Assembly (NCBI GenBank): GCA_963281255.1
Contig: OY725491.1
Span: 4,390,857 to 4,454,856 of the forward strand
DNA: 64,000 bases
Reading direction: 5' to 3'
Source of the DNA: Aphrocallistes beatrix
Taxonomy: Eukaryota; Porifera; Hexactinellida; Sceptrulophora; Aphrocallistidae
Shown here: piece after piece, positions 20,491 to 26,044 of the stretch
Layout: the number at the start of each line of letters is the position of its first letter
Numbering within the stretch: the first letter of the stretch is position 1
Position numbers and translations under genes: made by a program
Notes under the pieces: generated by a model
Told to the model about the DNA's origin: nothing
The model's input: only the letters and a program-made list of their open reading frames with translations
Database searches by the model: none

Positions 20491-21706
20491 AGTGCAGCTC
20501 CTATAGGGAGATGTCGACTAATGTAGGGTATTTCACCACGTAGGATCCGATTTTCGCATTTTGAAAGTAATAATATAAATATTTTATGAGTTTTTAACAT
20601 ATGAATATATACATATTTTCACACCTTCGAAAAAATCTTCTTTTGAAATAAAAGCAAGTTCTCAACGGCTACTATAGGATATTTTAATGTGTAGATTCCG
20701 ATTTTAACACATTGAAAGTGGTAACCTAAGCATTTTATGAATTCCTAACATATGTATATATACATATTTTCACACCTTTTGGAAAAAATCTTATTTTGAG
20801 CTAGAAGCGAGTTCTCAACGGCGAATATAGGATATTTGAATATGTAGATTCCAATTTTCGTACTTAGAAAGTGGTAACCTAAGTATTTTATGAGTTCCTA
20901 ACATATGTATATATGCATATTTTCACACCTTTTGGAAAAAATCTTATTTTGAGGTAAAAGGGAGCTCTCAACGGCTAATATAGGATATTTAATGTGTAGA
21001 TTCCAATTTTCGTACTTAGAAAGTGGTAACCTAAGTATTTTATGAGTTCCTAACATATGTATATATACATATTTTCACACCTTTTAAAAAAGGTTTTATT
21101 CTGAGCTAGAAGCGAGTTCTCAACGGCTAATATAGGATATTTAATATGTAGATTCCAATTCTCGTACTTAGAAAGTGGTAACCTAAGTATTTTATGAGTT
21201 CCTAACATATGTATATATGCATATTTTCACACCTTTTGGAAAAAATCTTATTTTGAGCTAAAAGGGAGCTCTCAACGGCTAATATAGGATATTTAATATG
21301 TAGATTCCAATTTTCGCACTTAGAAAGTGGTAACCTAAGTATTTTATGAGTTCCTAACATATGTATATATACATATTCTCACACCTTTTGAAAAAATCTT
21401 AGTTTGAGCTAGAAGCGAGTTCTCAACGGCTAATATAGGATATTTGAATATGTAGATTCCAATTTTCGTACTTAGAAAGTGGTAACCTAAGTATTTTATG
21501 AGTTCCTAATATATGTATATATACATATTTTCACACCTTTTAAAAAAATTTATTTAGAGTTAAAAGCTAGCTCTCAATGGCAAATATAAGGTATTTTAAT
21601 ATATAGATTCCAAATTTCACACTTAGAATGCCCTAAAATGAGTATTTCCGCCGTATTCCGATATTTACATTTCATATTCCTTCGAGTCACTTCCTGGAGC
21701 TGCACT
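20491..21706. mobile_element. TIR element filled with 152-bp tandem repeats
   Basis: AGTGCAGCTCC at 20491 and its inverse GGAGCTGCACT at 21696 bound the region; a TCGGTC-TGTC-GACCGA stem-loop lies just outside the right end. Inside are about seven head-to-tail units; the anchor ACATATG/ATATATG falls at 20597, 20747, 20901, 21053, 21205, 21357 and 21509, a spacing of 150-154 bp. No ORF. The superfamily is uncertain (TIR or Helitron-like). Confidence 0.6.
20510..21690. repeat. 152-bp satellite-like tandem array
   Basis: Units share TCTCAACGGCTAATATAGGA, AGAAAGTGGTAACCTAAGTA and TATTTTCACACCTTTT blocks. They are related to the array at 6448-6860. Confidence 0.85.
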
Positions 21707-22257: not shown

Positions 22258-23244
22258 CTACTTTGCAGGATGGCCAAATATGTTAACCCTTTGAGTCGTG
22301 CTGTCGATGAACTCGTTGATAATAGGGCACATATCCAGCATCCTCGCCACATCCCTATGTGCTGCCAGTACAGAGAAGTGGTTCAACCTCTGTTGTGTCT
22401 GCGAGTTTCGGAGGTATGTGTGTATTCTGCTCAACATACTAAAGGCTCTCTCAGCTTCGCATGTCGTCACAGGTTGGTACACATATATCACACACAACAC
22501 ACAATGAAATTTCAGTGACTCTTTCTCAGCAAATGTTTTTCTAAGAGTCGAAATGTTTGTCTCTTTACACATACCTTTGCATCGAGTGAACCAGTTATTT
22601 ATCTCATACAAGAGTTGACCGAGATTGATATCCCCATTATAATATTCTGCCAGCGTTGTGATATCCTCGTCGGTCATCGTGTCATCTTCCAGACACCTCC
22701 GTAACAACTCTACTGTAGAGAGATCGTTTTTTGAGTACCGGTCGATTAGAGCTTTCGCACCCGCCTCCATAACAGACCTGTACATGGATGTATAGAAGTC
22801 CTTGATCTGTTCGTCAGTTATAGGGCCAGCTTTTATAACACTACCATGTGTACGGTTCGCCCTAGGAAGTGAAGGTAGGTCGAGGTACAGCTCTTCAGTA
22901 GTCAGTGTCTTTACAGCCTCATACAGATCATATGAATTTAAATGACCCTGCCATTCAGCTGTGAGGGTAAGGATTCGAGTATTGACCCAGGTTTTAACCT
23001 GTCCTACAGTTGTTCCTATTCCCTGACATTGGACATGGATGGGACTAGTAGCCTGCGGAACCTTTTGAATTACTCTGAGACAGAAGTAGTTCTTGAAAGT
23101 CTCGAGGTTTCGCAGAAAGGAGTCAGCTTTCTCCCTATTGTTGGCAGGTTCAATATAATCTTCCTTGATAGACTCTAGAAACTCGAGTTTCGTGATAGTG
23201 AACTAGGAAGGTATCAACTGCGGGCAACCTCATGACCCACCGAG
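22258..23244 (-). pseudogene. hAT transposase, C-terminal half
   Basis: Continues the gene at 24381-25711 after the RAG1-like insertion: the interrupted motif LRPLCTTRW is split exactly at the insertion. After frame changes comes a 175-codon open part with TTCEAERAFSMLSRIHTYLR and QTQQRLNHFSVLAAHRD, the hAT C-terminal dimerisation domain. A close relative lies at 62334-62870. Confidence 0.75.
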
Positions 23245-23249
23245 TTGTG

Positions 23250-24375
23250 CACAATGGCACGATGGGTTGCTTTAGCATGAAATTTCATACTCTTCAATTT
23301 GTCTAAAAAGCTGTTTACCATATTCTAATAATATGAGAACCCAGAAATTCATCAAAACTATTTGCTTTAGACAGTCTTGTTCTTTAATTTTGGCATTCCA
23401 AAGTCAGGTAACCACAATAGATAAAATTAGAAATTCTTTGTGTTCAAAAGCTGAGTTTTGAATTCAAATTCTTATTCAACGAAAATTGAGTCAAGGCATG
23501 ATTATGGGCTCTCAACTATGTTCTATTTTGAGCTCTCTTTAAGATGCAATACATAAATAAACAAGAATGTACAGTGGGATGCAAATATTTATAGTATGAA
23601 ACCATTGTAATTTTTATGAATTCAATTATTTTTCATCATCTCTTAAAGTACCAGTACTAATTTTGCCTATTGTTGCGAGTTGGAATTTTGATATTTTATT
23701 GTTGAGTAGTCGATCTCGAATAAATAAAATGATTTCCAGCCCTACCGGAGTTTTCCCTAATAACCATTTAAATGTTTTTTCCAATCGACCGCCGTTAAAT
23801 CCTTCAAAAATAGGTTGAAAATTTTCCAAATTTTATTTTATGGTTGATTAGCAATTGGAAATTATAAGACTAGCACACACACCAGACATAATCTCAAGAT
23901 TCAATAATGGATTAGAGTTAGAACGATTATCGGAAGAAGGTCTTAAAGTGAGTAGTAAGTTATTCCGTCGATATAGAGAAATTTTATCTCACAAGTACAT
24001 CCTTGAAGATTACATTAAGGATGTTTTACCCGATTGCTGTATCAGAATGACCCACTCCTCTTATTTAATTAAGGATAAAAAATCAATCCCAGACGCTAGC
24101 GTGTTTAATTGAAGACATTAGTGATTTGTAAATTCACTTATCTTGCCAGAAGATGATTAAACATCTCATTATCTTGGATATATTGTAATTTACAAATATT
24201 TTGTAAATTGTAGCATAAATGCGATGACGTCATACTTATCTGAAGCCTTACAAATTTTCTGAACATCTCAATCGAATTAATAGGTTCGATAACCTATAGG
24301 TCAATAATACTTTTTTATACCCTATCATCAACAAAAAGTGTCAATGCCACCAAAATGAGGTTTCGTGCCACTGTG
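23250..24375 (+). mobile_element. RAG1-like/Transib element with RSS-heptamer-like ends
   Basis: The ends are CACAATGGCACGA and TCGTGCCACTGTG (inverted CACAGTGGCACGA), with the 5-bp duplication TTGTG on both sides (23245-23249 and 24376-24380), inserted into a hAT coding region. CACWRTG heptamer ends with 5-bp duplications are the signature of Transib/RAG transposons; CACAGTG is the RSS heptamer. It carries a RAG1-like C-terminal exon at 23852-24112. At 1,126 bp it is an internally deleted copy. Confidence 0.7.
23852..24112 (+). pseudogene. RAG1-like C-terminal exon
   Basis: After an acceptor-like GATTAG, the open frame includes LAHTPDIISRFNNG, SEEGLKVSSKLFRRYRE and a charged tail, and ends at 24112. 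The pattern (LAH..II..NG...SEEG....K.FRR.R) matches the catalytic-Glu end of RAG1/Transib cores and the same segment at 13440-13590. The rest of the transposase is missing, so this is a fragment. Confidence 0.55.
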
Positions 24376-24380
24376 TTGTG

Positions 24381-25711
24381 CATAGTGGGCGCAGCATGTG
24401 GTTGTCTTTTGGGAATGACAAGTCATCAACGGATGCAAAGTTTACGATGCTTTTAAATCTGTCCCACTTCTTAGGCGAGTTTTTGATGAATTGAACCACA
24501 GAGTGCATACGTTCCAGAGCGATTGCTACTTCCGGAATGGCTTTCAAGAAATCTTGGACAACCAAATTGAGTTGATGTCCAAAGCAGTATAGGTAAAGGA
24601 CTTTAGGATTTTCAGTCAATACCTTAGCCTGCAACCCGTTTTCTCTGCCAGACATATTCGATGCCCCGTCGTAACTCTGACCCCGAATACCAGAGAAAGG
24701 AAGCCCAAAGGTCAGCAGAGAATCCTTCGCGAGTTTGAGCATGGTATTAGCATCAGTCCTGGATGTCTGATTAAATCCAATAAACACCTCTTCACTATCC
24801 ATGTCTTTGTTGCAGAAACGTAAGCATATCGCGACTTGTTCAATTCTGTTAATGTCTGTAGTTTCGTCGATAATTATGGAAAATATTGGTTCTTTTGAAA
24901 GACCTACAGACTCAGCTCGAATTCTTGCAATAAGGCTTCTCAGCAGAGCGTAGGCCAGATCTTTCAAAATTTCGTTCTGTATTAATGGTGACAAGAACCT
25001 CTGCTTGAGATCTGACTGCAGGTACTTCTTTACTTGAGGATTAAATTTGGCTATCACATTCACAATGCAGTTGAAATTGGCTGAGACAGCTTCTTCTCTG
25101 TGACCCCTCATCGGGATACACTGGTGCCCACACAACCTCGCGGCTTCAAAGATAGCCTTCAAACCAGTCCTTGCAAGCTCAAATTTCGTATTTACAGACT
25201 CATTTAACATAACTTTTTGTTGAGCGGCATGCTTATCGCTATTCACGGCATACTCAGCCGTCTTGTGAATTCCACTATTCACATGCTTGTCCAGCCCAGC
25301 TTTCCCACTTTTGAATGTGGAAAACCCAGAGAGCTTGTTCTTCCAAGGATTGTTAGAGCAACTGGTTATATCTGAATGTTGGATACGGCGATTCTCAAAA
25401 GCCCAGTGACAGATGATGCAATATAATGATTTCCTGTCGTCACACATCTTAAGCCACGCATTTTCTGCAAACCACTGCTTTTGAATGGAGTGACCACTTA
25501 AGGACTTGGGCATCACCGATGGTAAGCATAGCATATCTTGCTCCTTTGGGAAATATACATCAGTACCAGGTTCCAAGCCGACCTCACCAGAAGCTTCACT
25601 GGAATAATCTGCGTTATCGAGCCTTGGATTTTTCGCGCCGAAGCTCACGATTATAGAAGGTTGATTCGTACCGGGATCTCTTATCCTCTTTACAGATCTG
25701 CTGGTAGCCAT
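24381..25711 (-). pseudogene. hAT transposase, N-terminal half (TTF zinc finger and DDE part)
   Basis: The Met at 25711 starts MATSRSVKRIRD; the frame is also open further upstream. Then comes a TTF-type zinc finger (CIICHWAFENRR...H...H), FSIIIDETTDINR (first Asp), GIRGQSYDGASNMSG (second Asp) and YCFGHQLNLVVQD. The frame runs without stops to the insertion at 24375, so this half decayed little before being interrupted. DNA cut-and-paste transposase. Confidence 0.8.
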
Positions 25712-26044
25712 CGTTGTAAATGTAAATTCCAAAGTTTGAAGTATTAATGTAGTATAAACTATATAGTATATTAGTATATTGTTTGAAGCCATAACTTTGA
25801 TGAAACCAATTAAGAAGTAATACATGCCATTGGCTGAAAGGTGTTTCAAAACACTCAATCATGAAAGGAAAGGTGAGTTAGATGGCATCATGAATTAATA
25901 TCAGTTACAACATTGAATTTTGAGACTAGAATACTGACCGTATCAGATGACTGATGTTTGACAACTTGGAGGAGTTTACTTTTAATTTGAAAGAAATACT
26001 ATTCTATTCGAAGCGGTTTCAACTCGAGCAAAATTCTAACAAAC

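Follow-up and report, generated by a model that had tools for sequence, protein, structure and literature searches.

Introduction

RAG, the recombinase of antibody-gene assembly, and its relative Transib share a biochemistry in which DNA is nicked next to a CAC, hairpins are formed on the flanks, and integration takes place with a 5-bp stagger. Transib and RAG1 were reportedly first linked in a paper of 2005. Target-site duplications of 5 bp are typical of Transibs (PMC4411706), and most Transib families are described as having symmetric ends, with spacers of 27/31 bp given for ProtoRAG (PMC8289069). A few Transibs with a spacing of roughly 12/23 have been described, which means that ends both spaced and asymmetric are in themselves no novelty among Transibs (PMC8355894). 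One published survey, which includes bacterial Transibs, describes Subgroup I Transibs by asymmetric ends, an α11-12 region and a CTT1 tail; it describes part of Subgroup II as asymmetric too, so asymmetry alone assigns no subgroup (PMC9435367). The same source gives the ends of AanRAGL, from the pelagophyte alga Aureococcus, as 13 bp, a 4- or 13-bp spacer and 10 bp. Judging by title and abstract, we found no report in the literature of a Transib or RAG1-like transposon from a sponge (Porifera); the words "sponge" and "Porifera" are absent from the main text of PMC9435367 (supplement aside), and RAG1 is absent from the main text of two glass-sponge genome papers (PMC10280926, PMC10282587).

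Here we describe a 1126-bp insertion in a 64,000-nucleotide stretch of DNA, hereafter the window. We are highly confident that it is a non-autonomous Transib DNA transposon which arose by internal deletion of a longer element and was most likely moved in trans by cut-and-paste.

Results and discussion

The host genome

The genome that we searched comprises 100.5 Mb in 28 contigs. In the mitochondrial contig (C28, L052; 17,996 bp), COX1 contains 11 TGA, 0 TGG, 11 AGA and 36 ATA codons. Across its GIKIFSW motif, which we take to be invariant, the readings are Ile for ATA, Lys for AAA, Ser for AGA and Trp for TGA; A+T content is 70.8% over 4341 mitochondrial bases. The Aphrocallistes mitochondrion is described as reading AGR as Ser, favoring AUA for Ile, using almost no UGG and having 70.7% A+T, the AGR change being unseen in demosponges and other lower metazoans and known in some bilaterians (PMC2267718). 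The COX1 code of the present genome, with no TGG and with AGA read as Ser, probably points to a hexactinellid (glass) sponge.

Boundaries and target site of the insertion

The insertion occupies positions 23250-24375 (plus strand, 1126 bp) of the window, exactly to the base where the first-pass annotation had placed it. Its ends are CACAATGGCACGA and TCGTGCCACTGTG. The 5' tip element is located at 23250-23262 (plus strand), and the 3' tip element, at 24363-24375 (minus strand), reads CACAGTGGCACGA on the other strand; the two tips are complementary at 12 of 13 positions. The right tip contains the heptamer CACAGTG, and the ends of this family resemble this RSS heptamer. We found the CAC tips in other copies in the genome as well, in agreement with the RSS-heptamer-like ends originally proposed. 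The perfect TTGTG duplication that had also been proposed is present directly outside both tips, at 23245-23249 and 24376-24380.

The element interrupts a hAT-type transposase gene on the minus strand. Pfam analysis of the flanking minus-strand frames identified DUF4371 in the upstream part of this gene (24341-25858; E = 2.9e-20), the stop-to-stop frame of which extends into the element's right end, and the hAT dimerisation domain (Dimer_Tnp_hAT) in the downstream part (22258-23202; E = 5.6e-4, just under the cut-off). Two further copies of the hAT gene (L062 and L063, on contigs C7 and C18) are uninterrupted at this site and carry a single TTGTG each, so that both the filled and the empty site of the insertion are at hand. 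These two copies have frames that are interrupted at other places, the longest being 250 and 372 codons. A tandem array at 20546-21628 (152-bp unit, 7.1 copies, 89%) adjoins the hAT gene, and each of three successive units contains a 58-codon open frame on the minus strand.

Copies of the element and their target-site duplications

Searching the genome with the element as a DNA query, we obtained at least 52 matching stretches (40 scored of 64 candidates). Among the matches listed, at least 12 stretches, one of them in the window, span all 1122 bases of the query. A 25-base degenerate pattern built from the ends had 44 exact matches in the genome, compared with 0 for the reversed control. When the 12 copies were aligned, 11 differed from the column majority by 1.2-5.2% and one (L045) by 11.7%, and the low divergence of these 11 suggests a fairly recent spread.

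We scored target-site duplications in 16 copies with both ends, namely 15 of 20 loci and the window; L031, L032, L033, L046 and L047 were excluded because they are without two usable family A ends. The 5-bp duplication was perfect in 6 of the 16 copies and agreed at four or more of five bases in 11, as compared with 1 and 3 of 240 swapped flank pairs. With the family C element (see below) added and up to two extra junction bases allowed, 11 of 17 duplications were perfect (7 exact, 4 with extras; swapped flanks: 1 of 272), and among the six without a perfect 5-mer even with extras, five were one base off and L038 had none. These counts and the empty site are evidence for the 5-bp duplication of a Transib. 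Together with the pattern matches and the complete copies, they answer the suggestion made in the first-pass annotation that the assembly be searched for shared ends with 5-bp duplications.

The extra one or two bases lie between tip and duplication in L035, L037, L040 and L044, and L035 may alternatively be read as having a 6-bp duplication. At L038 (positions 1054-2185; contig C19), a 1.1-kb family A copy lies within a family B Transib transposase frame, and here 5 bp of the target are missing and there is no 5-bp duplication, as might result from trimming, and not filling, of the staggered ends.

Full-length relatives

A genome search with the 86-residue piece encoded by the window element (see below) returned 73 matches, and the Pfam RAG1 profile gave three weak matches over the genome, none above the cut-off. 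The families that we read were A (L029, L032), its near relative A' (L033, L049), B and C. Full elements were found for three of them: a 3005-bp family A element on contig C17 (L029; duplication TAGCC, open frame of 727 residues), a 3424-bp family B element (C2:2076520-2079943; duplication CAAAT, 734 residues) and a 3065-bp family C element (C4:3643123-3646187; duplication TTAAG, 761 residues).

When compared with solved structures, the L029 protein matched HzTransib of Helicoverpa zea best (6pqn and others; 6pqn, E = 2.8e-25), followed by lancelet RAG1L (6b40, E = 1.3e-9) and mouse RAG1 (E = 2.9e-6). A profile of seven sponge sequences gave the same best match (HzTransib, E = 2.3e-45; best RAG1 chain, 4.4e-16; RAG1L, 1.9e-14), and HzTransib also ranked above RAG1L and RAG1 for L054 and for the L038 frame of family B, the start of which is replaced by an insertion. 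L029 residues D291, D396 and E653 align with RAG1 D600, D708 and E962, presumably the catalytic residues, and all three are also present in L053 and L054, so that a Transib/RAG1 core with its D, D and E is found in each of these sequences. The longer relatives are possibly working elements. From the ends, the duplication, the empty site, the copies and the full-length relatives, we conclude that this genome contains a RAG-related transposon family, as had been claimed, and that the family is Transib. The full-length RAG1-like frame that was to be sought is that of L029, closest to HzTransib.

CAC tips are not unique to Transib, and taken by themselves they would also suit another superfamily with such ends, such as CACTA or Chapaev. 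The probability of this is negligible in our view, given the 5-bp duplications and given that the solved-structure matches of the full-length frames were only to HzTransib, RAG1L and RAG1, no unrelated chain scoring better than E = 0.1. Among solved structures, no other transposase family matched better than Transib/RAG1.

We also considered whether the parent element was, instead of a Transib, a RAG-like (RAGL) transposon with RAG1L and RAG2L genes. Counted on alignments, the stretch between CxxC and LH spans 66 (L029), 66 (L054) and 67 (L053) residues, which is long as in ProtoRAG RAG1L (61) and unlike the short stretch of HzTransib (31). In addition, families B and C have a C-terminal tail, Cx2Cx3GHx5C, which is close to the CTT motif of RAG1L and whose last gap exceeds that of the published Cx2Cx3GHx4C by one residue (PMC7204232); there is no such tail in L029 (family A). 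However, both the stretch and the tail are also described for Subgroup I Transibs (PMC9435367), and HzTransib outscores RAG1L and RAG1 for the L029, L054 and L038 frames. Furthermore, the three full elements (3005, 3424 and 3065 bp) contain one frame of more than 150 codons each and no RAG2L gene; judging from these frames, none of the three has room for a RAG2-like gene. A search with Pfam PF03089 (RAG2) gave no match in the genome, but the control genomes were likewise without a match. Thus, the RAG2-like gene for which the first-pass annotation had recommended a check was not found in the full elements or by this profile, and we consider a RAGL origin very unlikely. Frames outside the elements at L046 and L047 were tried as second genes and rejected (best E = 0.2, no match); the L046 frame lies beyond the end of its element.

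The internal deletion and the remnant frame

Bases 1-615 of the window element can be aligned with one end of the 3005-bp L029 element (91%) and bases 622-1126 with the other (84%), and about 1.9 kb of the latter element is absent. The junction of this deletion, with about 6 bp of filler, is at 23865-23870 (plus strand), within an 86-codon open frame at 23852-24112 (plus strand). This frame opens with QLEI like the L029 frame, retaining the initial 4 codons of the transposase frame, and then passes into the C-terminal part (about 80 codons), which makes it a fusion created by the deletion. The region had been annotated as a RAG1-like C-terminal exon: the Transib/RAG1 C-terminal sequence is indeed there, but it does not constitute an exon, no Met occurs before residue 66, by which point the conserved part has ended, and it has Lys in place of the third catalytic residue, the Glu equivalent to RAG1 E962. 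That Lys is found in 11 of the 12 1.1-kb copies, with Glu in L044 only, and the Transib transposase with D, D and E is itself deleted from the window copy. Taken alone, the frame has low scores (E = 0.027 against Pfam RAG1, below the cut-off; E = 1 against RAG1 chains), and its identity as Transib/RAG1 C-terminal sequence is drawn from the full-length relatives.

The 86-codon frame is kept in 6 of the 12 copies, as might be expected if it were maintained as a small protein, for example a repressor competing with the transposase. We regard this as extremely unlikely, since the first Met lies beyond the conserved part, the frames of the other six copies have 41-93 codons and altered ends, and most copies would be young enough for frames to be open by chance.

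For the non-autonomous Transib proposed here, we envisage that an internal deletion of a longer element removed almost all of the transposase gene and kept both ends with their second elements (see below). Transposase encoded by a family A element that is still intact, of which the 3005-bp one on contig C17 is an example, would then bind both ends in trans and cut 5' of the CAC, leaving hairpins on the flanks, and the element would be joined to its target in the hAT transposon gene with a 5-bp stagger. Both the mobilization in trans and the nick-and-hairpin chemistry are what we infer by analogy with RAG and Transib. The L029 element need not be the actual helper, its divergence from the window copy being 9% in one part and 16% in the other.

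Two-part asymmetric ends

In four families, both ends contain a second element, about 10 bp in length, which begins near base 18 at the 5' end and near base 27 at the 3' end, giving a layout of 13 bp, a 4- or 13-bp spacer, and about 10 bp. In the window, the 5' second element TTGCTTTAGC is located at 23267-23276 (plus strand) after a 4-bp spacer, and, reading from the right end inward, the 3' second element TGGCATTGAC follows a 13-bp spacer and occupies 24340-24349 (minus strand). The 5'/3' second elements are TTGCATTAGC/TGGTATTGAC in family A, TGGCTTTTGG/TGGCATTGGC in family A' and AGGGAGTTGA/AGGGAGTTGG in family C, and family B has AAAGAATAGG at both ends.

To score this arrangement, we used an offset test of the two ends. 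At a shift of 9, the best 10-base windows matched at 7 (A), 8 (A'), 10 (B) and 9 (C) positions, summing to 34. The shift of +9 was the best of 41 (the runner-up summed to 26), and a total of 34 was attained at no shift by any of 1000 shuffles. The four families are not four independent cases, because A and A' are related; families B and C alone match at 10 of 10 and 9 of 10 positions. The A' ends are a composite of an L033 5' end and an L049 3' end, since the L033 3' end is without bases present in L049, and the ends of L033 itself score 1 of 10 at 18/27. A family on contig C12 (L055), represented by its 5' end only, was left out of the test.

For family A alone, another pairing equals the score at shift 9 (7 of 10); the ends of the window element and of L029 score 6 of 10 when placed exactly at 18/27. 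In 10 of the 12 1.1-kb copies, at least 8 of 12 positions match between 5' bases 16-27 and 3' bases 25-36. By a longest-common-word test, a second end element is unsupported in family A (the observed value was reached by 328 and 493 of 500 shuffles) and supported in family C only (9 of 500 shuffles); the claim of second elements is carried by the four-family offset test. The nonamer-like block that had been suggested as a check is therefore present in one respect, as a second, spaced end element, but its sequence is not that of the RSS nonamer. We regard the second elements as putative binding sites, and a requirement for one end of each kind would be hypothetical.

Comparison with described systems

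As judged against the published description of Subgroup I Transibs (PMC9435367), the elements of this sponge host are alike in CAC tips, 5-bp duplications, a single gene, asymmetric ends in all four families, and a stretch of α11-12 length, the last recognized between CxxC and LH in L029, L053 and L054 by length and alignment. The CTT1 (CCGHC-type) mark is where the families part, with a C-terminal knuckle present in B and C and absent from the window's family A. On the marks of that subgroup, families B and C appear to fit and family A has two of three. If this holds, family A, with no knuckle yet with asymmetric ends and the α11-12 stretch, separates features that have been grouped for Subgroup I. 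From HzTransib, the best structural match, the sponge elements differ in the long CxxC-LH stretch and in their asymmetric ends, those of HzTransib being described as symmetric (PMC8289069).

AanRAGL, as published, shares the end layout (13 bp, 4/13 spacers, 10 bp) and 5-bp duplications with the sponge elements, but differs in its element sequences and in carrying RAG2L, the three full sponge elements having no second gene (PMC9435367). The window element is thus of a known kind, and asymmetric Transib ends as such are already known; what is new here is that 4/13 two-part ends, a layout published for AanRAGL (PMC9435367), are common to four Transib families of this genome. We think the chances even that the broader picture is right, namely that several families of Transib exist in a glass sponge, that the frames of some are intact, and that the families have two-part asymmetric ends with the 4/13 spacing of the algal RAG1L-RAG2L transposon. 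If true, this form of asymmetric two-part signal is independent of RAG2.

The right-tip heptamer CACAGTG and a second element at two spacings are features shared with the V(D)J signals of vertebrate RAG, from which the sponge ends differ in that the spacers are 4/13 and not 12/23, the nonamer sequence is lacking, and the setting is a transposon and not an immune locus. The comparison bears on how signals that act in pairs and have spacers of two lengths, which underlie the 12/23 rule, came about. In this genome, from an early-branching animal group, related Transibs with a single gene have ends that are spaced and asymmetric, and only some of them possess a C-terminal knuckle, so that one can test whether one end of each kind is already required by a transposase without RAG2. 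The interest of the window element itself is modest; its main value lies in the ends and in the full-length relatives reached through it. Scans of bacterial and viral sequence collections for relatives yielded no confirmed match.

GC-rich targets have been reported for Transib and ProtoRAG (PMC8289069). In contrast, eight exact duplications in this genome are not GC-rich, as 15 of their 40 bases are G or C (window GC: 36%), with no GC bias. At C20:635809-638535, we observed three identical family A right ends at a spacing of 1351 bp and in one orientation, which might reflect a tandem array containing a Transib end.
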